Assembly (NCBI RefSeq): GCF_010731635.1
Contig: NZ_AP022583.1
Location: forward strand, 4,154,001-4,218,000
From: Mycobacterium noviomagense
GTDB taxonomy: Bacteria > Actinomycetota > Actinomycetes > Mycobacteriales > Mycobacteriaceae
Length of the DNA stretch: 64,000 nt
Direction of reading: 5' to 3'
The position numbers were made by a program, and so were the translations under genes. Shown here in pieces: positions 25,551-55,509 of the stretch. Every line of letters starts with the position of its first letter. Within the stretch, counting starts at the first letter, position 1. The notes below the pieces were generated by a model. The model saw only the letters and a list, made by a program, of their open reading frames with translations, had not been told where the DNA came from and did not search any database.

Positions 25551-25742
25551 ATGACGACTGACAGCACGGTGGTGCGCGCCGCTTGCAGCTCGGGGCGCGA
25601 CGCTGTCGACCCGTCCCGCGGCGGACAACTCGTCGCGTGGCGAGGTCGGTGGTGGTGCCTTACGGTTATCGATGTAAATCACGCCGCGGCCGCTGCCGTG
25701 GCATTCCGTCGGATGGGGATTGCGACCCAAAGTGCCATCTAA
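25551..25742 (+). CDS. Possible small leader ORF before eccB5
   Basis: A 63-residue frame beginning ATG at 25551, preceded by GCGGGGGAC as a possible ribosome site, and overlapping the eccB5 start by 11 bp. The translation (with WRGRWWCLTVIDV) resembles no family I know. It could be a translated leader of the ESX-5 operon or chance. Codon choice does not decide. Confidence 0.22.
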   Translation: MTTDSTVVRAACSSGRDAVDPSRGGQLVAWRGRWWCLTVIDVNHAAAAAVAFRRMGIATQSAI

Positions 25743-27255
25743 TTCAGAACGCGGGCAGCACAGGTCGGGCTACGGCCTGGGACTGTCGACCCGCACCCAG
25801 GTCACCGGTTATCAGTTCCTGGCCCGCCGTACCGCGATGGCGTTGACACGGTGGCGGGTCCGCATGGAGGTCGAGCCCGGCCGCCGGCAGGCGCTGGCCG
25901 TAGTCGCGTCGGTGTCGGCGGCCGCGGTGATCTGCCTCGGCGCGCTGCTGTGGTCCTTCATCAGCCCGTCCGGGCAGATGGGGGAGTCGCCGATCATCGC
26001 CGACCGCGACTCGGGGGCGCTCTATGTGCGGGTGGGCGACACCTTGTATCCGGCGTTGAACCTGGCGTCGGCGCGGCTGATTGCGGGGCGAGCCGAAAAC
26101 CCGCACAAAGTGCGCTCGAGCCAGATCGCCGAACAGCCGCACGGGCCGATGGTCGGCATTCCGGGCGCGCCGTCGGACATTTCCCCGACCAGTCCGACGT
26201 CGTCGTCGTGGCTGGTGTGCGACTCGGTGACGGCGGCACAGGGTGTGGGCGCGCCGGCCTCGGTCACTGTGACGGTCATCAACGGCACCCCGGATCTGTC
26301 GGGCCGCCGGCACGTGGTCAGCGGCTCGGACGCGGTGGTGCTGCGCTACGGCAACGACACGTACGTGATCCGGCAGGGCCGCCGGTCACGCATCGATGCG
26401 GCCAACCGCGCGGTGTTGTTGCCGTTGGGATTGACTCCCGAGGAGGTCAAGCAGGCCAGCCCGATGAGCCGGGCGCTCTACGACGCGCTGCCCGTAGGCC
26501 CGGAACTGGTGGTGCCGAAGGTGCCGGAAAGCGGTAGCAAGGCAGACTTCCCCGGCGCCCCCGCGCCGGTGGGCGCTGTGCTCGTCACACCGCAAATCAG
26601 TGGGCCGCAACAATATTCGGTGGTTTTGCCGGACGGCGTGCAGACCATTTCACCGATCGTGGCCCAGATCCTGCAGAACGCCGGCACCCCGTCGGGCAGC
26701 ACGCCGGTAGTAGTGGCGCCGGCGACATTGGCGAAAATGCCGGTGGTCCACGGGCTGGAGCTGTCGGCCTACCCCGACAGCCCGCTCAACGTGGTGAACA
26801 TGAAGGAGAATCCGGCAACCTGCTGGTGGTGGGAAAAGACCACCGGCGAAGAACGCGCCCGCGAACAGGTGGTCTCCGGACCGACCGTGCCGGTCGCTAC
26901 CGGCGACACCAACAAGGTGGTGTCGCTGGTGAAGTCCGACAACTCCGGCCGCGAAGCCGACCGCGTCTACTACGGCCCGAACTACGCCAACTTCGTCGTC
27001 GTCACCGGCAACGATCCGGCCGCTAAGACAGCGGAATCGCTATGGTTGTTGTCAAAATCCGGGGTGCGCTACGGCGTGGACAACTCGCGTGAGGCACGCA
27101 CCGCACTCGGGTTGACCTCCAACCCGAGCCCCGCACCGTGGGTGGCGCTTCGGCTGCTGGCTCCCGGCCCTGAGCTTTCGCGCCAGGACGCACTGGTGCG
27201 CCACGACACTCTCCCAACAGACACGAACCCTGCTGAATTGGCGGTACCGAAGTGA
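25732..27255 (+). CDS. eccB5: ESX-5 secretion system protein EccB5
   Basis: A protein of 507 residues. GTG 25732 gives an N-terminus aligned with the 506-residue M. tuberculosis EccB5 (Rv1782). After GYGLGLSTRTQVTGYQFLARR comes one transmembrane helix (ASVSAAAVICLGALLWSFI, about residues 60-80), then a large periplasmic domain of repeated segments, with Cys in SWLVCDSV and ENPATCWWWE likely forming a disulfide. EccB5 is a core subunit of the ESX-5 inner-membrane complex and projects into the periplasm. The stop overlaps the eccC5 start (GTGA), so the two are coupled. Confidence 0.97.
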   Translation: MPSNSERGQHRSGYGLGLSTRTQVTGYQFLARRTAMALTRWRVRMEVEPGRRQALAVVASVSAAAVICLGALLWSFISPSGQMGESPIIADRDSGALYVRVGDTLYPALNLASARLIAGRAENPHKVRSSQIAEQPHGPMVGIPGAPSDISPTSPTSSSWLVCDSVTAAQGVGAPASVTVTVINGTPDLSGRRHVVSGSDAVVLRYGNDTYVIRQGRRSRIDAANRAVLLPLGLTPEEVKQASPMSRALYDALPVGPELVVPKVPESGSKADFPGAPAPVGAVLVTPQISGPQQYSVVLPDGVQTISPIVAQILQNAGTPSGSTPVVVAPATLAKMPVVHGLELSAYPDSPLNVVNMKENPATCWWWEKTTGEERAREQVVSGPTVPVATGDTNKVVSLVKSDNSGREADRVYYGPNYANFVVVTGNDPAAKTAESLWLLSKSGVRYGVDNSREARTALGLTSNPSPAPWVALRLLAPGPELSRQDALVRHDTLPTDTNPAELAVPK

Positions 27256-30200
27256 AACGAGGATTCGCTCGCCCCACGCCCGAGCGGGCGCCGGTGGTGA
27301 AACCGGAGAACATCGTCCTGCCGACGCCGTTGAGCGTCCCGCCCCCGGAAGGCAAGCCGTGGTGGCTGGTGGTAGTTGGCGTTCTGGTGGTCGGCCTATT
27401 GGTCGGCATGGTCGGCATGACGGTGGCCAGCGGCTCACGGCTGTTCCTGGGGGCCGGCGCCATATTTCCGATCTTCATGATCGGTGGCGTCGCGATGATG
27501 ATGTTCGGCGGTCGCTTCGGCGGCCAGCAGCAGATGAGCCGACCCAAGCTCGACGCGATGCGCGCCCAGTTCATGCTGATGCTCGACATGCTGCGCGAGA
27601 CCGCCCAGGAGTCGGCCGACAGCATGGACGCCAACTACCGCTGGTTCCACCCGGCGCCGACGACGCTGGCGGCAGCGGTCGGCTCGTCCCGGATGTGGGA
27701 GCGCCAGCCCGACGGAAAGGACCTCAACTTCGGGGTCGTGCGGGTCGGGGTCGGTATGACGCGGCCCGAGGTGACCTGGGGTGAGCCCCAGAACATGCCG
27801 ACCGACATCGAGCTGGAGCCGGTGACCGGTAAGGCGCTGCAGGAGTTCGGCCGCTACCAAAGCGTCGTCTACAACCTGCCCAAGATGGTGTCGCTGCTGG
27901 TCGAGCCCTGGTACTCGCTGGTCGGCGACCGCGAGCAGGTTCTGGGGCTGGCGCGGGCGATCATCTGCCAGCTGGCGTTCTCGCACGGACCCGACCACGT
28001 CCAGATGATCGTCGTCACCTCGGATCCCGACCGGTGGGACTGGGTGAAATGGATTCCGCACTTCGGCGACCCGCGGCGCCGTGACGCCGCCGGCAACGCC
28101 CGGATGGTGTACACGTCGGTGCGTGAGTTCGCCGCCGAGCAAGCCGAATTGTTCGCCGGCCGTGGGTCTTTCACTCCGCGGCACGCCAGCTCGTCGGCGG
28201 AGACGCCCACTCCGCACCACGTGATCATCGCGGACATCGAAGACCCGCAGTGGGAGTACGTGATCAGCTCTGATGGCATCGACGGTGTGACGTTCTTCGA
28301 CCTCACCGGCTCGCCGGTGTGGACGACCGTGCCGCAGCGGGTGTTGCGGTTCACCGACAAGGCCGGCGTGATCGAGACGTTGCCCCGCGACCGCGACACC
28401 TGGATGGTGATCGACGACAACGCATGGTTCTTCGCGCTCGCCGACTGCATGACCGAACCCGACGCCGAACAGTTCGCCCAGCAGATGGCGCACTGGCGAC
28501 TCGCGGAGGCCTACGAGGAGATCGGTCAGCGGGTTGTACAGCTGGGTGCCCGAGACATCTTGTCTTACTACGGAATCGACGATGCCGGCGAGATCGACTT
28601 CAACTCGCTGTGGAGCGGCCGTCACGACATGCTCAGCCGATCACGATTGCGGATACCGTTCGGCAATCGCGCCGACAACGGCGAGCTGCTGTTCCTTGAC
28701 ATGAAGTCGCTGGATGAGGGCGGCGACGGTCCGCACGGCGTGATGTCGGGAACCACCGGCTCGGGTAAGTCGTCGCTGGTGCGCACGGTGATCGAGTCGC
28801 TGATGCTCGCCCATCCGCCCGAAGAGTTGCAGTTCGTGCTGGCCGACCTCAAAGGTGGGTCCGCGGTCAAGCCGTTCGACGGGGTACCGCACGTCTCCCG
28901 GATCATCACCGACCTGGAAGACGACCAAGCGCTGATGGAGCGCTTCCTGGAGGCGATGTGGGGCGAGATCGCCCGCCGCAAGGAAATCTGCTTTTCCGCC
29001 GGTGTCGACGGCGCGAAGGAATACAACGAACTGCGGTCCCGGATGCTGGCCCGCGGCCAGGACATGCCGCCGCTGCCGATGCTGGTCGTGGTCATCGACG
29101 AGTTCTACGAATGGTTCCGCATCATGCCGACCGCGGTCGACGTTCTCGACTCGATCGGCCGCCAGGGCCGCGCCTACTGGGTCCACCTGATGATGGCGTC
29201 GCAGACCATCGAGAGCCGGGCCGAAAAGCTCATGGAGAACATGGGTTATCGGCTGGTGCTGAAAGCGCAGACCGCGGGCGCCGCACAGGCGGCCGGTGTG
29301 CCGAACGCGGTGAACCTGCCGGCGCAGGCCGGTCTGGGGTACTTCCGCAAGAGCGGCGACGAGATCATCCGGTTCCAGGCCGAATACCTCTGGCGTGATT
29401 ACCGCCGCGGCTTGTCGCTCGACGGCGAGGAGCAAACGCCGCTGACGCACGCCATCGACTACATCCGCCCACAGCTCTTCACCACCGCATTCACTCCGAT
29501 CGAGGTCAGTGTCGGCGGGCCGAACGGCCAAAGCGCGCTTCCCGAGGTCGTCGACGGCGAGGTGCTCAACGGCCACCGTGACGGCGAGGGTGAGGAAGAA
29601 GAGGCGCTGCGGACGCCCAAAGTCGGCACAGTGATCATCGACCAACTGCGCCAAATCGACTTCGAGCCGTACCGGCTGTGGCAACCGCCGCTGGATGTGC
29701 CGCTGCCGATCGACGAACTGGTGAACCGCTTCCTGGGCCGACCGTGGCAGCAGGACTACGGCACCGCCAAGAATTTGGTGTTCCCGATCGGCATCATCGA
29801 CCGCCCCTACAAGCACGACCAGCCCCCGTGGACGGTCGACACCTCCGGGGCCGGCGCCAATGTGCTGATCCTTGGGGCCGGTGGTTCGGGTAAGACGACC
29901 GCGCTGCAGACCCTGATCTGCTCGGCCGCCATGACCCACACGCCCGAGCAGGTTCAGTTCTACTGCCTGGCCTACAGCGGCACGGCGTTGACCACGGTGG
30001 CCAGTCTGCCGCACGTCGGCGGGGTCGCCGGCCCGACCGATCCCTACGGTGTGCGCCGCACGGTCGCCGAGGTGCTGGGTCTGGTGCGGGAGCGCAAACG
30101 AAGCTTCCTCGAATACGACGTCCCCTCAATGGAGGTGTTCCGGCGTCGCAAGTTCGGCGGCGAACCCGGCAGCGTGCCCGACGACGGGTTCGGCGACGTG

Positions 30201-31418
30201 TATTTGGTGATCGACAACTACAGGGCACTGGCCGAAGAGAACGAGGTGCTCATCGAGCAGGTGAACCTGATCATCAACCAGGGACCGTCCTTCGGCGTGC
30301 ACGTGGTGGTCACCGCCGACCGCGAATCGGACCTGCGGCCCGCGGTGCGCAGCGGCTTCGGTTCGCGGGTCGAGTTGCGCCTGGCCGCGGTGGAGGACGC
30401 CAAGCTGGTGCGCTCCCGCTTCGCCAAAGACGTTCCGCCCAAACCCGGTCGCGGCATGGTTGCGGTCAACTATGTGCGACTCGACAGCGACCCGCAGGCC
30501 GGGCTGCACACGTTGGTGGCGCGCCCGGCGCTGGGGAACACCCCGCAGGCGGTGTTCGAGTGCGACAGCGTGGCCGCCGCGGTCCGGCAGCTGGCTGTCG
30601 GCGAGGCGCCTCCGGTGCGCAGGCTGCCGGCCCGCTTCGGGCTGGAGCAGGTGCGGGCGTTGGCCGCCGCCGACCGGCGCCAGGGCGTCGGTGCGGGCGG
30701 AATCGCTTGGGCTATCTCCGAATTGGATCTGCAGCCGGTGTATCTGAACTTCGCCGACAATGCGCATCTGATGGTGACGGGCCGGCGCGAGTGCGGTCGA
30801 ACCACGACGCTGGCCACCATCATGGCCGAGATCGGCCGGATCTACGCACCCGGGGCGAGCACGGCCCCGCCCACGTCGCGTCCGTCGGCGCAGGTGTGGC
30901 TGGTGGACCCGCGCCGTCAGCTGCTGACGGTGCTGGGCTCGGACTACGTGGAGAGGTTCGCCTACAACCTCGACGGCGTGGCGGTGATGATGGACGAGCT
31001 GGCGGCCACGCTGGCCCGCCGGGAGCCGCCGCCGGGACTGTCGGCCGAAGAGTTGTTGTCGCGCTCGTGGTGGAGCGGCCCGGAGATCTTCCTGATCATC
31101 GACGACATCCAGCAGCTGCCAGCCGGCTACGACTCCCCGCTGCACAAGGCCGCGCCCTGGGTGACCCGGGCCGCCGACGTCGGGTTGCACGTGTTCGTCA
31201 CCCGCACGTTCGGCGGCTGGTCCTCGGCGGGCAGCGACCCCATGCTGCGGGCGTTGCATCAGGCCAACGCGCCGCTGCTGGTGATGGACGCCGACCCGGA
31301 CGAGGGTTTCATCCGCGGCAAGATGAAGGGTGGCCCGCTGCCACGCGGTCGCGGGCTGTTGATGGCCGAAGACACCGGCGTGTTCGTTCAGGTGGCGGCT
31401 ACCGACGTGCGCCGGTAA
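27252..31418 (+). CDS. eccC5: ESX-5 FtsK/SpoIIIE ATPase EccC5
   Basis: A protein of 1388 residues (M. tuberculosis EccC5 has 1391), a fused EccCa/EccCb. Two transmembrane helices lie near residues 35-80. Three ATPase domains follow: the first has an intact P-loop GTTGSGKS at 500-507, the second GAGGSGKT at 875-882, and the third a degenerate loop GRRECGRTT at 1177-1185. This is the motor that recognises WXG100 and PE/PPE substrates and drives export. The C-terminal end is intact (GVFVQVAATDVRR). In M. tuberculosis the next gene is cyp143 in convergent orientation; here a glycosyltransferase gene begins 27 bp on. Confidence 0.97.
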   Translation: MKRGFARPTPERAPVVKPENIVLPTPLSVPPPEGKPWWLVVVGVLVVGLLVGMVGMTVASGSRLFLGAGAIFPIFMIGGVAMMMFGGRFGGQQQMSRPKLDAMRAQFMLMLDMLRETAQESADSMDANYRWFHPAPTTLAAAVGSSRMWERQPDGKDLNFGVVRVGVGMTRPEVTWGEPQNMPTDIELEPVTGKALQEFGRYQSVVYNLPKMVSLLVEPWYSLVGDREQVLGLARAIICQLAFSHGPDHVQMIVVTSDPDRWDWVKWIPHFGDPRRRDAAGNARMVYTSVREFAAEQAELFAGRGSFTPRHASSSAETPTPHHVIIADIEDPQWEYVISSDGIDGVTFFDLTGSPVWTTVPQRVLRFTDKAGVIETLPRDRDTWMVIDDNAWFFALADCMTEPDAEQFAQQMAHWRLAEAYEEIGQRVVQLGARDILSYYGIDDAGEIDFNSLWSGRHDMLSRSRLRIPFGNRADNGELLFLDMKSLDEGGDGPHGVMSGTTGSGKSSLVRTVIESLMLAHPPEELQFVLADLKGGSAVKPFDGVPHVSRIITDLEDDQALMERFLEAMWGEIARRKEICFSAGVDGAKEYNELRSRMLARGQDMPPLPMLVVVIDEFYEWFRIMPTAVDVLDSIGRQGRAYWVHLMMASQTIESRAEKLMENMGYRLVLKAQTAGAAQAAGVPNAVNLPAQAGLGYFRKSGDEIIRFQAEYLWRDYRRGLSLDGEEQTPLTHAIDYIRPQLFTTAFTPIEVSVGGPNGQSALPEVVDGEVLNGHRDGEGEEEEALRTPKVGTVIIDQLRQIDFEPYRLWQPPLDVPLPIDELVNRFLGRPWQQDYGTAKNLVFPIGIIDRPYKHDQPPWTVDTSGAGANVLILGAGGSGKTTALQTLICSAAMTHTPEQVQFYCLAYSGTALTTVASLPHVGGVAGPTDPYGVRRTVAEVLGLVRERKRSFLEYDVPSMEVFRRRKFGGEPGSVPDDGFGDVYLVIDNYRALAEENEVLIEQVNLIINQGPSFGVHVVVTADRESDLRPAVRSGFGSRVELRLAAVEDAKLVRSRFAKDVPPKPGRGMVAVNYVRLDSDPQAGLHTLVARPALGNTPQAVFECDSVAAAVRQLAVGEAPPVRRLPARFGLEQVRALAAADRRQGVGAGGIAWAISELDLQPVYLNFADNAHLMVTGRRECGRTTTLATIMAEIGRIYAPGASTAPPTSRPSAQVWLVDPRRQLLTVLGSDYVERFAYNLDGVAVMMDELAATLARREPPPGLSAEELLSRSWWSGPEIFLIIDDIQQLPAGYDSPLHKAAPWVTRAADVGLHVFVTRTFGGWSSAGSDPMLRALHQANAPLLVMDADPDEGFIRGKMKGGPLPRGRGLLMAEDTGVFVQVAATDVRR

Positions 31419-31445
31419 GCCACTCGTGGCCAGCCGCGTGCGGCG

Positions 31446-32669
31446 ATGAAATTCGTGGTGGCCGGCTATGGAAGCCGCGGCGATATCGAGCCCTGCGCCG
31501 CCGTCGGCCGCGAACTGCTGCGGCGAGGCCACGAGGTTCGGATGGCCGTCCCGCCCAACATGTTTGGCTTCGTCGAGTCGGCCGGGCTGGCGCCGGTCGC
31601 CTATGGGCCCGACCCGCCGGCGTTGCTTCACGACGTGGATTCCGTGGGCACGGTTCAGAATCCGATCAACATGCTGCCCGACGTCATCGAGCACGTCACC
31701 CGGCTCTGGGTGGAGATGGGCACGACGCTGATGTCGCTGGCCGACGGGGCCGACTTGGTGTTGGCGGGCACCAACGAACAGGCGCTCGCCGCCAACATCG
31801 TGGACTATTACGGCATTCCGCTGGCCGCACTGCACTGTTTCCCGATGCGGGAGTTCGTTCCGGTGTTGCCGCCGCCGCTGGGGTGGTTGGATTTCCGGGT
31901 CACGGAGGAGGCAGCGAAGGCCCAGCGCCGCGCCCTGGGATTGCCGGAGCGAACCGGGCCCTCGGCGCGAGGGATGGACCGCGGATCGCTGGAGATCCAG
32001 GCCTATGACGAGGTCTGCTTTCCGGGGCTGGCAGCCCGATGGGCGGACGTGTCCGATCGGCGGCCATTCGTAGGCGCGCTGACGCTGGAGTTGGCGACGG
32101 ATGCCGACGAGGAGGTCTTGTCGTGGATCGCGGCGGGAACACCGCCGATCTACTTCGGATTCGGCAGCATGCGGGTGCCCTCGCCGGCTGACACGGTTGC
32201 CATGATCGGCGCGGCCTGCATGCAGCTAGGTGAGCGGGCGCTGATCTGTTCGGGCGCAAACGATTTCAGCGGTGTCCCACGTTTCGACCATCTCAAGGTG
32301 GTGGCCGCGGTCAATCACTCGGCCATCTTTCCCGCCTGCCGCGCGGTCGTGCACCATGGGGGCGTCGGCACCACCATCGCGGGCCTGCGAGCCGGAGTCC
32401 CGACATTGATCCTCTGGATTGGACTCGATCACCCGATCTGGATTTGGGCGGCTGCCGTCGACCAGTTGAAAGTTGGCTTCGCGCGGCCCCTCTCGGCCAC
32501 GACTGAGCAATCACTTGTCGCTGACCTGCGCTGCCTGCTCGCCCCGGAATACCTCACGCGAGCCCGTGAGGTCGCCGCCCTGATGACCAATCCGGCTGAA
32601 AGCGCCGCCATGGCAGCCGATCTCCTGGAAGATGCCGCCCGGGTGGGGCGCTGTGGCGAACAACCGTGA
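31446..32669 (+). CDS. MGT-type glycosyltransferase 1 (GT1 family, Rv1524/GtfA-like)
   Basis: A protein of 407 residues with the GT-B fold of sterol/macrolide/GPL glycosyltransferases. The N-terminal motif is MKFVVAGYGSRGDIEPCAAV, and the donor site holds [10 protein letters not shown] and the signature VVHHGGVGTTIAGLRAGVPTL. The family includes Rv1524 and Rv1526c of M. tuberculosis and the GtfA/GtfB enzymes that sugar-decorate glycopeptidolipids. It begins 27 bp after eccC5 on the same strand, so it may share ESX-5 transcription. It is the first of three paralogues, separated by 15 and 21 bp. Donor and acceptor are unknown. Confidence 0.9.
   Translation: MKFVVAGYGSRGDIEPCAAVGRELLRRGHEVRMAVPPNMFGFVESAGLAPVAYGPDPPALLHDVDSVGTVQNPINMLPDVIEHVTRLWVEMGTTLMSLADGADLVLAGTNEQALAANIVDYYGIPLAALHCFPMREFVPVLPPPLGWLDFRVTEEAAKAQRRALGLPERTGPSARGMDRGSLEIQAYDEVCFPGLAARWADVSDRRPFVGALTLELATDADEEVLSWIAAGTPPIYFGFGSMRVPSPADTVAMIGAACMQLGERALICSGANDFSGVPRFDHLKVVAAVNHSAIFPACRAVVHHGGVGTTIAGLRAGVPTLILWIGLDHPIWIWAAAVDQLKVGFARPLSATTEQSLVADLRCLLAPEYLTRAREVAALMTNPAESAAMAADLLEDAARVGRCGEQP
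31995..32168 (+). repeat. Gene-conversion tract, copy 1
   Basis: A 174-bp block nearly identical (a few silent differences by eye) to 33228-33401 in the next paralogue. The flanking parts of the two genes are clearly divergent. The block encodes the domain junction from [11 protein letters not shown] to PPIYFGFGS. Confidence 0.85.
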
Positions 32670-32684
32670 GTCGGGTCCGGCTCG

Positions 32685-33884
32685 ATGAAATTTGTGCTGG
32701 CAAGTTATGGAACGCGTGGTGATGTCGAGCCCTGCGCCGCCGTCGGTCGCGAGCTGCTGCGCCGAGGGCACGAGGTGCGGATGGCCGTGCCGCCGCAGAT
32801 GCTTGGCTTCATCGAGTCGGTGGGCCTGGCTGCAGTTGCCTGCGGGCCGGACTCGCTGCTACGGGATGAAGAGCGCGACCGCTTCTCGCGGCTTCAGGAT
32901 CCGGTCATCGCGCTGTGCGAATTCGTTGAGTATGCGACGCAGCTCTGGTTAGAGATGAGCACGGTGTTGTCGACGCTGGCAGACGGAGCCGACCTGATAT
33001 TGACCGGGATGAGCGACAAACAGGGGCTTGCCGCCAACGTTGCGGAGCATCACGGCATTCCGCTGGCCACGCTGCACTGCTACCCGATCGACGAGTTCCC
33101 GTCGATGCCGGCGACCCTGTCGTGGCTTGATCGACAGATCACGAAGGAGGCCGAAGACGCCCAACGGCGCGCACTAGGCTTGCCCCAGCCGACCGGTCCC
33201 TCGGCACCGGAGCATGATCTGCTGGAAATCCAGGCCTACGACGAGGTCTGCTTTCCGGGGTTGGCAGCCCGATGGGCGGACGTGTCCGATCGGCGGCCAT
33301 TCGTAGGCGCGTTGACGCTGGAGTTGGCGACGGATGCCGACGAGGAGGTCTTGTCGTGGATCGCGGCGGGAACACCGCCGATCTACTTCGGATTCGGCAG
33401 CACCTCCGTTGAGTCTTTCGCCGACTCAGTCGCCATGATCAGCGCAGCGTGCACGGAGTTGGGGGAACGAGCGTTGATCTACACCGGGCTCCATGGTTTC
33501 GAAAACATCCCGCATTTCGACCATGTCAAAGTTGTGGGCACGTTGAACTACGCGACCGTCTTTCCCGCCTGCCGCGCCGTTGTTCACCACGGCGGCGCCG
33601 GCACGACCGCCGCAGGCCTGCGAGCCGGAATCCCGACGCTGGTCCTGTGGGTCGGTCACGACCAACCGATCTGGGCAGGTGTCGTTCAACGGCTGAAAGT
33701 CGGTGCAGCGCGCCACTTTCCGACGATCACCCGGCACTCGCTGGTGGCCGATCTGTGCTCCGTCCTCGCTGCCGACTGCGTGACGCGTGCCCGTGAGGTC
33801 GCCGCTGCGATGACAAAGCCAGCGCAAAGCGTTGCCGGCGCCGCCGACCTTTTGGAAGACGCCGCCCGTGCGCGTTTGGGCTGA
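32685..33884 (+). CDS. MGT-type glycosyltransferase 2
   Basis: A protein of 399 residues, paralogue of the preceding gene: [20 protein letters not shown] at the start, [10 protein letters not shown] in the donor domain and [21 protein letters not shown] as family signature. The N-terminal acceptor half has diverged most from its neighbour (loop residues around 50-85 and 140-170), as expected if the three enzymes use different acceptors. The middle is almost identical at the DNA level over 174 bp. The ATG is 15 bp after the first gene, in one transcription unit. Confidence 0.9.
33228..33401 (+). repeat. Gene-conversion tract, copy 2
   Basis: Partner of 31995-32168. Near identity stops abruptly after the FGFGS codons, which points to recent conversion and not to uniform recent duplication. 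Confidence 0.85.
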
Positions 33885-33905
33885 CTACGGCGAGCTAGGT
33901 TCGCA

Positions 33906-35078
33906 TTGATGAAATGTGTGGTAGCTGGCTACGGAGGTCGCGGTGACGTCGAGCCCTGCACGGCCTTGGCTGTGGAGCTGCAGCGGCGAGGCCACGAGGT
34001 CCGGATGGCGGTCCCGCCTAACATGCATCGCCTCGTCGAGTCAGCCGGGCTCGCAGCGGTCGCTTACGGGCCCGACTCACAGGCGCTGCTGCACGACGCG
34101 GATTTCGTCCGCAAGGTTCAGAACCCGATCAGCGCGCTACCCGAAGTCATGGACCACGTCACCCGGGTCTGGGCGGAGAAGAGCACGACGCTCATGTCGC
34201 TGGCAAACGGAGCCGATCTGGTGGTGGCGGGCATGAATGAGCAGGCGCTCGCGGCCAACGTCGCAGAGTATTACAGCGTTCCGCTGGCTGCGTTGCACTT
34301 CTATCCGCAGGTATTGCCCGTGGGGTCGCTGCATTGGCACATTACGAAGGAAGCTCAAGAGGCCCATCGCCGTGAATTAGGCTTGCCGCAGACAGCGTCA
34401 CGGGAAGCCGGAGCGCTGGAAATCCAGGCCTATGACAAGCTCTGCGTGCCCGGGCTTGCAGCCGAATGGGCGGAACATGGTGAGCGACGTCCCTTCGTCG
34501 GTGCGCTGACCCTCGAGTTGGCCACAGCTGCCGACGAGGAGGTCTTGTCGTGGATTGCGGCGGGACCACCGCCGATCTACTTCGGCTTCGGCAGCACGCC
34601 GATCGCGTTTCCAGCTGACACCGTGGCGATGATCAGCGCTGCCTGCGCGCAATTGGGTGAGCGCGCATTGATCTGTTCGGGGGCAAACAACTTCAGCCGA
34701 ATCCCACTGCCCGGCCATGTGAGGGTGGTTGAGGCGGTGAACCACTCAGCCGTCTTCCCGGCCTGCCGTGCGGTGGTGCACCATGGCGGCGCCGGTACGA
34801 CAGCCGCAGGCCTGCGAGCCGGCATTCCGACGTTGATTCTGTGGTTTTGGCTCGATCAGCCGATCTGGGCAGCGGCGGTCGGACGGCTGAAAGTTGGGAA
34901 ATCCCGGCAGTTTTCAGCTACGAATCGGGAATCATTAGTCGCGGATCTGCGCTGCATCATCACGCCGCAATACATCACGCGAGCGCATCAGGTGGCGGCG
35001 CTAATGACGAACCCCGCCCAAAGCGCCGCCAGCGCCGCGGATCTGCTGGAAGACACCGCCCGATCAGGAGGCCGCTGA
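33906..35078 (+). CDS. MGT-type glycosyltransferase 3
   Basis: A protein of 390 residues (or 389 from the second ATG). It starts MKCVVAGYGGRGDVEPCTAL, and has [10 protein letters not shown] and [21 protein letters not shown]. It is slightly shorter than its two paralogues because of a deletion in the acceptor-domain loop near residue 135. Twenty-one bp separate it from the second gene. It closes the three-gene set; the next sequence downstream is P450 debris. The role is the same as for the paralogues: sugar transfer to a lipid or peptide acceptor, identity unknown. Confidence 0.88.
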   Translation: MMKCVVAGYGGRGDVEPCTALAVELQRRGHEVRMAVPPNMHRLVESAGLAAVAYGPDSQALLHDADFVRKVQNPISALPEVMDHVTRVWAEKSTTLMSLANGADLVVAGMNEQALAANVAEYYSVPLAALHFYPQVLPVGSLHWHITKEAQEAHRRELGLPQTASREAGALEIQAYDKLCVPGLAAEWAEHGERRPFVGALTLELATAADEEVLSWIAAGPPPIYFGFGSTPIAFPADTVAMISAACAQLGERALICSGANNFSRIPLPGHVRVVEAVNHSAVFPACRAVVHHGGAGTTAAGLRAGIPTLILWFWLDQPIWAAAVGRLKVGKSRQFSATNRESLVADLRCIITPQYITRAHQVAALMTNPAQSAASAADLLEDTARSGGR

Positions 35079-35196
35079 TTTCGTGGTGGGCTTTCGGCGC
35101 GTCCGAGCTGGGCCGGCGCCGGTAGCTACCCAAGGCACGGTGCTTCAGCTCCGCTCGGAGATCCGCCTGAATCGTGGGAGCGCACCCGTGACCGGG

Positions 35197-35308
35197 TCAG
35201 CCCCAGCTCAACGGTAGGGACTTGAGCGCAAAACTTTTGGACGGGAAACTGATTTCGGGGGTGTAGCCCTGCGGCAGTTCGAAGTCGGGGGATCTGCTTG
35301 AGACATTC
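35197..35308 (-). pseudogene. cyp143-like 3' end remnant
   Basis: Read on the minus strand, the last ~36 codons of a CYP143-type P450 remain, including PDFELPQGYTPEISFPSK and the terminal [11 protein letters not shown]. The DNA matches the ends of the two P450 genes at 48252 and 49872, and so does the stretch before the stop (GTGACCGGGTCAGC at 35188). A one-base insertion breaks the frame just upstream, and homology stops near 35308. The heme and catalytic regions are absent. This is where the 3' end of cyp143 would lie if it had stayed next to eccC5. Confidence 0.85.
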
Positions 35309-43117: not shown

Positions 43118-44308
<1,191 letters not shown>

Positions 44309-48251: not shown

Positions 48252-49513
<1,262 letters not shown>

Positions 49514-49862: not shown

Positions 49863-52515
<2,653 letters not shown>

Positions 52516-54447: not shown

Positions 54448-55509
54448 CTACGGCTGGTTCCCTGATCGAGCGCCTGCATTCGTCTTTTCGTAGACGAGCC
54501 AGCGCAATTCGATCGGGGACTCCTCGCGCTCGACGTCGAACACATCGAGGCCACTTGCCCAATTGGCGTACCAGCCGGTGGGCGGCCAAGCGCCTTCGGG
54601 CAGATGGGCTTTCTCGTATTCGTAGGCGGGGTCGTCGGCCACGAGCTCGAGAGGTAGCAAGGCCGCCGCACCCGTCATCTCCTCGCGGGTGAAAATCATG
54701 CTGTTACACTGTTGTCCGAGTTCTCGCGCGGCGTCGTCCGGGGTGTAGCCCTCGCGCGGCACAAACGTATTGAACACCAAGCGACCGCCGGGAACCAGGC
54801 ACTGCGCGGCAAGTTCGAACATGCCGCGCAGCTGCTGCGCGGTGCGGAAGTCGGGTACCACTTCTGAGACCACGACGAGCTGATAGTCCGTGCGCAGGCC
54901 GTCCATGGTGGCAAAGACGTCGCGCTGGATCACGCGCACGTCGAGCGATTCCCGTTCGGCCTCTGTCCGAAGGATGTGCGCAAATTTCGGGGAGAGCTCC
55001 ACGGCGTCGACCGGATGGCCGCGTCGCGCCAGGGCCAACGCATTGCGTCCGGTTCCCGCGCCGACGTCGAGCACCGGATAGCTTCTGGGATCGGCTGATT
55101 CGCCGGCCAGCGTCCACACGCGCGCGTCCGGTTCGGTGCCGAACAATGGCGGCTCGCGGATGGCAAGCCACTGGTCGTAAGCGGCGTCGATCGTCGACCA
55201 CTCGGCCTTGACACGGTAGTTCAGGATCGTGCCGACCGGGACGTGGAACGAGATGACGATGTTGGAACGCGAGGAAGCCGTATAGGCTTCGGCCAACTGG
55301 CTTTCCAGCACCGTCTTGAGTTCGGCGAACTGCCCGGCCGAAAACCGCACACCCAGGCCGGCGAAGACGTTGTCGCACATCACGACGTACTCGTCGACCA
55401 TGCTGGGCACGGCCGGAAGCGTTATCTGCCCCATAGCCACCGACCGGCGATACAACCGCCGTGCCATCGCTTCCCGCAGCACCGACGGATCGAGGGGCAG
55501 GTTTTCCAT
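54448..55509 (-). CDS. Class I SAM-dependent methyltransferase, antisense insert in the PE/PPE block
   Basis: A protein of 353 residues. The SAM-binding motif I is VLDVGAGTGRNALALARRG (about residues 145-163). VDAVELSPKF (motif II acid) and VVVSEVVPDF follow. An N-terminal domain of about 140 residues precedes the Rossmann fold, and a C-terminal lid contains AWPPTGWYANWASGLDVF. The enzyme class resembles TehB-like small-molecule methyltransferases; the substrate is unknown. It has no counterpart in the M. tuberculosis ESX-5 locus. It is convergent with PPE26 (11 bp between the stops) and divergent from the next PE gene. Confidence 0.85.
   Translation of the reverse strand: MENLPLDPSVLREAMARRLYRRSVAMGQITLPAVPSMVDEYVVMCDNVFAGLGVRFSAGQFAELKTVLESQLAEAYTASSRSNIVISFHVPVGTILNYRVKAEWSTIDAAYDQWLAIREPPLFGTEPDARVWTLAGESADPRSYPVLDVGAGTGRNALALARRGHPVDAVELSPKFAHILRTEAERESLDVRVIQRDVFATMDGLRTDYQLVVVSEVVPDFRTAQQLRGMFELAAQCLVPGGRLVFNTFVPREGYTPDDAARELGQQCNSMIFTREEMTGAAALLPLELVADDPAYEYEKAHLPEGAWPPTGWYANWASGLDVFDVEREESPIELRWLVYEKTNAGARSGNQP

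Follow-up and report, generated by a model that had tools for sequence, protein, structure and literature searches.

In Mycobacterium tuberculosis, the methyltransferase gene Rv1523 and the glycosyltransferase (GT) gene Rv1524 are neighbours. The predicted partners of Rv1523 listed in one report include a probable glycosyltransferase (PMC7994892). A precedent for a GT together with a methyltransferase comes from glycopeptidolipids (GPLs): a second paper names the mycobacterial GPL glycosyltransferases gtf1, gtf2 and gtf3 and reports gtf genes with rmt O-methyltransferases (PMC1885439). Here we describe three tandem GT genes (GT1 to GT3) directly behind eccC5 of the ESX-5 locus of Mycobacterium noviomagense, and a methyltransferase gene in the same locus. 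They lie in a 64-kb window (contig NZ_AP022583.1, positions 4,154,001 to 4,218,000; the whole stretch that was analysed) of a genome that consists of one contig of 4.78 Mb. The arrangement is a variant of the ESX-5 locus that is specific to, and conserved within, a small lineage. Those parts of the open-access literature that were searched yielded no description of a GT triple behind eccC5.

The presumed transcription unit begins with eccB5 (25720–27255, + strand; NCBIfam TIGR03919, 485 bits against a cut-off of 154), whose end overlaps the start of eccC5 by 4 bp. The eccC5 gene (27252–31418, + strand) scores above the cut-offs of both NCBIfam T7SS_EccC_a/b models (TIGR03924, 751 bits; TIGR03925, 630 bits). 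It is followed, after a spacer of 27 bp (31419–31445), by GT1 (31446–32669), GT2 (32685–33884) and GT3 (33909–35078), all on the + strand. GT1 and GT2 are 15 bp apart, and the gap between GT2 and GT3 measures 24 bp if GT3 starts at the ATG at 33909 or 21 bp if it starts at an alternative TTG at 33906; its two orthologs agree better with the ATG. The sequence-only reading of this stretch had the tandem genes, their strand, coordinates and gaps right. Its account of the insertion held for the GT triple but overlooked a segment of about 8 kb before the cyp143-like gene, the methyltransferase gene and a conversion tract between GT1 and GT2. The same order behind eccC5 is repeated in two further genomes, G319 (gaps of 27, 14 and 13 bp) and G185 (23, 13 and 12 bp). 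Because of this recurrence, we do not regard the GT arrangement as a product of chance.

To place the triple within the genus, we relied on genome surveys that were even draws from the larger genus, with at most 9, 4 and 10 candidates scored per genome, so that absences are not proven. GT1 was searched in 396 Mycobacterium genomes including this one (E ≤ 1e-155, four candidates scored per genome). Matches turned up in 11 genomes, three of which (this one, G185 and G319) carry the triple; a search of 61 genomes labelled as relatives, mostly from the same set, revealed no further triple. The loci behind eccC5 were also inspected directly in 80 named loci, of which 70 extend at least 1.2 kb and 37 at least 9 kb behind the gene, with ten too short to judge. 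No GT match was seen behind eccC5 in any of the 80 (tblastn, E ≤ 1e-10). Thus the same insertion, which the sequence-only reading had proposed to look for in other slow growers, is found in G185 and G319 and in none of the 70 judgeable named loci. A core component of ESX-5 would be conserved in the ESX-5 loci of slow growers; with 0 of 70 named loci and a triple in 3 of 396 genomes, GT1–3 do not belong to that class.

Within the three species, each GT copy forms its own ortholog clade (support 100/100 for GT1, 100/100 for GT2 and 97/94 for GT3, the last 97/93 in a second tree that kept 53 of 63 rows by leaving out 10 rows of dense distant clades), and the cassette therefore predates the split of these species. 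The ratio of nonsynonymous to synonymous substitution rates (dN/dS) lies between 0.11 and 0.27 in all nine GT ortholog pairs by two methods, compared with 0.07 for the one eccC5 pair computed. By these ratios, GT1–3 are under purifying selection: they are functional genes, less constrained than the export ATPase. In a tree of eccC5 built from 22 of the loci, the three triple genomes stand beside, not inside, the M. fragae, M. kyorinense and M. celatum groups, to whose eccC5 that of the window is 86–88% identical. From this kinship one may guess that the genome belongs to the M. xenopi group. The G185 row in this tree is the longer of two frames. In that genome eccC5 (L138, 14963–19140) reads as two overlapping open frames, possibly through a frameshift or a sequencing error.

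GT1, GT2 and GT3 all carry Glyco_transf_28 and EryCIII-like_C domains above the Pfam gathering cut-offs, which bears out their earlier assignment to an MGT/GPL-type family. An N-terminal RGDxEP motif, whose Asp has a catalytic role, is present with its Asp in 57 of 57 aligned family rows, GT1–3 among them. The donor motif HHGGxGTT is found in 52 of the 57, again including GT1–3; the five exceptions are genes of other genomes. Both motifs can be aligned with GtfB. An AlphaFold model of GT1, the one protein modelled, was built from an alignment of eight sequences and reached a predicted template modelling score (pTM) of 0.84 and a mean predicted local distance difference test score (pLDDT) of 81. 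Its nearest fold match by Foldseek is GtfB (1iir, E 2.7e-25), a GT-B fold, and its eight best matches in the PDB are GtfB, GtfA, GtfD and a GtfA-based chimera, at 25–28% identity. A sequence search with GT3 agrees, placing GtfB and a GtfA chimera nearest among solved structures. Judged by the titles of the structures, the closest solved relatives of the GTs are enzymes of antibiotic and sterol glycosylation. We conclude that GT1–3 are ordinary enzymes of a known kind in an unusual place.

On the level of the individual copies, there are differences at both ends of the proteins. The donor loop of GT1 and its two orthologs contains an insert of two residues, unique among the 57 rows, together with D[H/Y]P, where 47 of the 57 rows have DQP. 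As the loop in the DQP region contacts the sugar donor in GT-B enzymes, GT1 may use another sugar donor. Over alignment columns 1–185, GT1 and GT2 are 59.8% identical, GT1 and GT3 67.1% and GT2 and GT3 54.7%; over the remaining columns the values are 73.1%, 75.3% and 68.8%. The earlier claim that the acceptor domains differ is thus reflected in N-terminal halves that are more diverged (54.7–67.1%) than the C-terminal halves (68.8–75.3%), as expected if the acceptors differ.

GT1 and GT2 share a tract (32007–32169 in GT1, 33240–33402 in GT2, both + strand) with only 2 mismatches in 163 bp, although the genes are 75% identical overall. The longest identical run measures 90 bp, against a mean of 22 and a maximum of 40 in 2000 codon shuffles. 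Judged from these runs, the tract is a gene conversion. In one block of 60 columns, GT2 of this genome is closer to the GT1 of G319 (0.92) than to the GT2 of G319 (0.72), and in the adjacent block the values are 0.85 and 0.90; tentatively, GT1 could have been the donor. Among the six paralog pairs in G319 and G185, G319 GT1/GT3 hints at a similar event with an identical run of 41 bp, no shuffle producing one as long, and G185 GT1/GT2 perhaps does so too with one of 33 bp (0.0065). The remaining pairs of the six have no clearly outstanding run.

The distance between eccC5 and GT1 is similar in the three species (27 bp here and in G319, 23 bp in G185). The sequence-only reading had considered read-through from the ESX-5 promoter likely, and neither a promoter nor a terminator was found at 31419–31445. 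A scan for the sigma-70 consensus, which is weak evidence in mycobacteria, returned 0 promoter-like sites, and 3 terminator-like sites were detected against 2.9 expected, none of them in the 27-bp spacer. By the close spacing and the lack of consensus sites, co-transcription of GT1–3 with eccC5 is plausible. At most, the ESX-5 position would give the cassette co-expression with the export system.

A gene for an S-adenosylmethionine (SAM)-dependent methyltransferase (54448–55506, − strand; Methyltransf_25) lies among the PE/PPE genes of the ESX-5 locus and is a likely functional partner of the GTs. G319 and G185 carry it at the corresponding position, with 83–84% identity, and a methyltransferase gene also lies inside the ESX-5 locus of two further genomes, G070 and G116. 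In M. celatum it resides on the ESX-5 contig, about 21–22 kb from a GT gene of the same family upstream of eccB5, and in M. kyorinense DSM 45166 on a contig other than that of ESX-5. The methyltransferase matches of Mycobacterium sp. 1245111.1 and Actino1 lie next to a different GT or at some other place. Of 8 genomes, 4 gave a match at E ≤ 1e-80, the four without one being M. fragae, M. kyorinense E861, Ca. M. methanotrophicum and sp. SM1. No NCBIfam model names the methyltransferase specifically (the best reaches 52 bits, cut-off 175). The methyltransferases of the ESX-5 loci and that of M. kyorinense are split between two clades that neighbour each other; the approximately unbiased (AU) test does not reject their union in one clade (p-AU 0.38).

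To put a figure on this pairing, we counted linkage in 198 genomes, with E-value limits of 1e-130 for GT and 1e-90 for methyltransferase matches. GT matches occur in 54 genomes, and 47 of these have a methyltransferase match as well. The two genes lie within 25 kb of each other in 28 of the 54, among them this genome (13 at less than 2 kb, 12 at 2–10 kb and 3 at 10–25 kb), where uniform placement would predict about one; since the genomes are related, this chance figure is a guide only. Elsewhere, such pairs are found near peroxidase (katG-like), fur, YkuD, MOSC or cutinase genes, some with a PPE gene, and no ESX core gene was seen in the stretches around the pairs of other species. A recurrent neighbourhood of a GT, a methyltransferase, a katG-like peroxidase and fur, in some cases with YkuD, cutinase or MOSC, was noted in L151, L152, L154, L206–L209 and L216.

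Overall, we moderately favour the hypothesis that a lineage-specific GT cassette at the 3' end of the eccB5–eccC5 row glycosylates a lipid, a peptidolipid or a small hydrophobic acceptor, with the methyltransferase as partner. This reading builds on gene order, family, intact motifs, the GT1 fold model, conservation in three species, purifying selection and the linkage of GT and methyltransferase genes; we infer read-through from eccC5, the class of the acceptor and the role of the methyltransferase. The acceptor class, a lipid, a peptidolipid or another hydrophobic molecule of small size, is indicated by fold and motifs. GT1–3 would presumably act as cytosolic GT-B enzymes that use a nucleotide sugar via the C-terminal half, with the diverged N-terminal halves binding different acceptors or acceptor positions. 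Their acceptor would probably be an envelope molecule (a lipid, a peptidolipid or another small hydrophobic compound) that receives sugars one after another or as alternatives, and the methyltransferase would probably O-methylate the sugar or the acceptor.

Several observations weigh against this hypothesis. The methyltransferase gene is 19 kb from the GT genes and on the opposite strand, and is thus not on the same transcript. In 26 of the 54 GT-bearing genomes no linkage is seen (19 with both genes unlinked or on different contigs, 7 without a methyltransferase match), and M. fragae has an upstream GT and no methyltransferase match at E ≤ 1e-80. In the GT1 model, residues 62–71 and 138–145, part of the acceptor half, have pLDDT values below 50. 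NCBIfam models for specific functions remain far out of reach: GT1–3 score 42–58 bits with the macrolide MGT model (TIGR01426; cut-off 260) and 101–110 bits with the Rgt model (NF000354; cut-off 800). Finally, the AU test weakly rejects a tree in which all nine triple genes group together (p-AU 0.037), although this and the other tested clades were named after seeing a tree, which weakens the p-AU values. GT1–3 may accordingly not stem from a single amplification; a clade of GT1 with GT2 is not rejected (p-AU 0.42).

The strongest alternative, and by our estimate a nearly even prospect, is that the position is accidental: the GT genes would stand behind eccC5 because the site tolerates insertions and would use its transcript, without a functional link to secretion. 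In this genome, the eccC5–cyp143 junction does hold a second insert. The cyp143-like P450 gene (43118–44293, − strand; p450 domain) is separated from GT3 by an extra segment of about 8 kb with LysR, MFS and ClC genes, which is absent from G319 and G185, where cyp143 adjoins GT3 directly. Thus the junction probably records two events: one concerns the GT cassette, which three genomes share, and the other the segment, which has been seen in just this one. A CYP143-like gene directly behind eccC5 is the usual order in most named loci: the earlier statement that cyp143 follows eccC5 in M. tuberculosis finds its counterpart in 51 of 80 named loci with such a gene within 500 bp, a comparison to which H37Rv itself does not belong.

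An accidental position would also fit a second site near ESX-5. A GT of this family lies about 4–5 kb upstream of eccB5, beyond malQ, in 5 of the 80 named loci (M. fragae, M. kyorinense DSM 45166, M. celatum, Mycobacterium sp. 1245111.1 and the metagenome-assembled genome Actino1) and in G070 and G116; 68 of the 80 extend at least 9 kb before eccC5. In these relatives the gene sits between a molybdopterin oxidoreductase gene and a small gene, upstream of malQ–eccB5 (L011 3448–4632, L012 3613–4764, L014 3512–4684, L034 3500–4630, L079 3635–4771). It is absent at that site from the other M. kyorinense strain (L010) and from Ca. M. methanotrophicum (L081). In the three triple genomes, gene calling gave no GT at this upstream site, and the window contains no GT remnant there.

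We considered a single origin by relocation from this site and rejected it, as a common clade of the seven upstream genes is rejected (p-AU 2.4e-5); the site holds GTs of different lineages in different species. A clade of the triple with the four upstream genes of the M. kyorinense/M. celatum type was likewise rejected (p-AU 0.0096), whereas one of GT3 with those four genes is not (p-AU 0.167). Given the clade tests (2.4e-5 and 0.037), we claim no simple move between the upstream site and that behind eccC5. Related enzymes elsewhere, moreover, lie away from ESX core genes. However, mere tolerance of insertions accounts less readily for the joint presence of GT and methyltransferase genes in the ESX-5 loci of several relatives, and for an order and close spacing kept in three species.

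Further features of the locus concern its P450 genes and the edge of the 8-kb segment. Three CYP143-like P450 genes are present in this ESX-5 locus (43118–44293, 48252–49439 and 49872–51194), the latter two being 90% identical to each other. Just behind GT3, at 35189–35308, a piece of about 120 bp matches the 3' ends of these latter two genes with 83% identity; it sits at the edge of the segment missing in G319 and G185. A Mutator-family transposase gene (51399–52451) lies within the PE/PPE region.

Less well supported is the idea that GT1–3 complete or vary the organism's own GPL, with a peptide core made by a non-ribosomal peptide synthetase (NRPS) cluster at 1.66–1.74 Mb and extra, perhaps strain-specific, sugars. 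The genome does encode six further paralogs that are 50–61% identical to GT1–3, five of them beside the NRPS genes at 1.66–1.74 Mb, which have condensation and adenylation domains, and the sixth at 1.63 Mb; together with the NRPS region, they suggest a GPL-like product. M. xenopi has serine-containing GPLs with 6-deoxytalose and a di- or tetrasaccharide of rhamnose, according to a review (PMC7261415), and GT1 and GT2 fall on the side of the NRPS-region paralogs in one tree (94/94; 65/91 in the second). Yet the NRPS region already has five such GT genes, GT1–3 are encoded outside it at 4.19 Mb, and they fall outside the clade of its paralogs in both trees, which were built without named GPL enzymes. 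The GT–methyltransferase pairs elsewhere stand beside peroxidase, fur, YkuD or cutinase genes. We therefore think this origin of the sugars unlikely.

A functional link of the cassette to secretion or PE/PPE export, such as the modification in step with secretion proposed by the sequence-only reading, is possible at most. In its strongest form, GT1–3, on the eccB5–eccC5 transcript, and the methyltransferase would be a dedicated, co-regulated glycan system of the ESX-5 locus. Its product, a methylated glycoconjugate, would need ESX-5 for its display or export, and gene conversion between the GT copies would alter which sugars are displayed; this we consider quite improbable. The modification of secreted proteins is the least likely form of such a link, given relatives that are antibiotic and sterol enzymes by title. 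Glycosylation of ESX-5 substrates (PE/PPE proteins) or of the translocon would agree with the gene neighbourhood and with the PPE genes beside GT genes in some other genomes, but it sits poorly with those solved relatives and with the lack of a GT behind eccC5 in the 70 judgeable named loci, when eccC5 itself is present in all 80; we regard it as very improbable. Slightly weaker still is a role as drug- or xenobiotic-inactivating, Rgt-like enzymes, since the rifamycin-inactivating Rgt, though the best NCBIfam match, is met at 101–110 bits against a cut-off of 800, and three diverged copies with a linked methyltransferase better fit a biosynthetic role.

Envelope glycosylation by a lineage-specific cassette hence remains our preferred reading. 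Whether a surface glycoconjugate is made together with a secretion system can be tested concretely on this conserved triple, which stands 27 bp behind eccC5 and shares its locus with a methyltransferase. Should the position turn out to be accidental, the locus would still illustrate clearly how cassettes turn over, and how gene conversion acts, among the sugar genes of mycobacteria.

When comparing the window with the ESX-5 locus of slow growers, the overall composition is the same: eccB5, eccC5, P450, PPE, EspG, EccD, a subtilase (mycP-like) and EccE are all present. The differences are the three GT genes between eccC5 and cyp143 and the methyltransferase among the PPE genes. With GtfA, GtfB and GtfD of the vancomycin group, GT1–3 share the fold, RGDxEP and HHGGxGTT, and these are the nearest structures by sequence (GT3) and by fold (GT1); however, identity is only 25–28%, and GT1 has D[H/Y]P plus a two-residue insert where GtfB has DQP. 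The GPL glycosyltransferases likely represent the closest characterised role for this family, and five paralogs lie in the NRPS region here, whereas GT1–3 are found away from that region and outside its paralog clade; the comparison was made through these paralogs. Rv1523/Rv1524 of M. tuberculosis likewise combine a methyltransferase with an adjacent GT, a likeness at the level of gene pairing. The enzymes are thus known in kind, and it is their arrangement that sets this ESX-5 locus apart.

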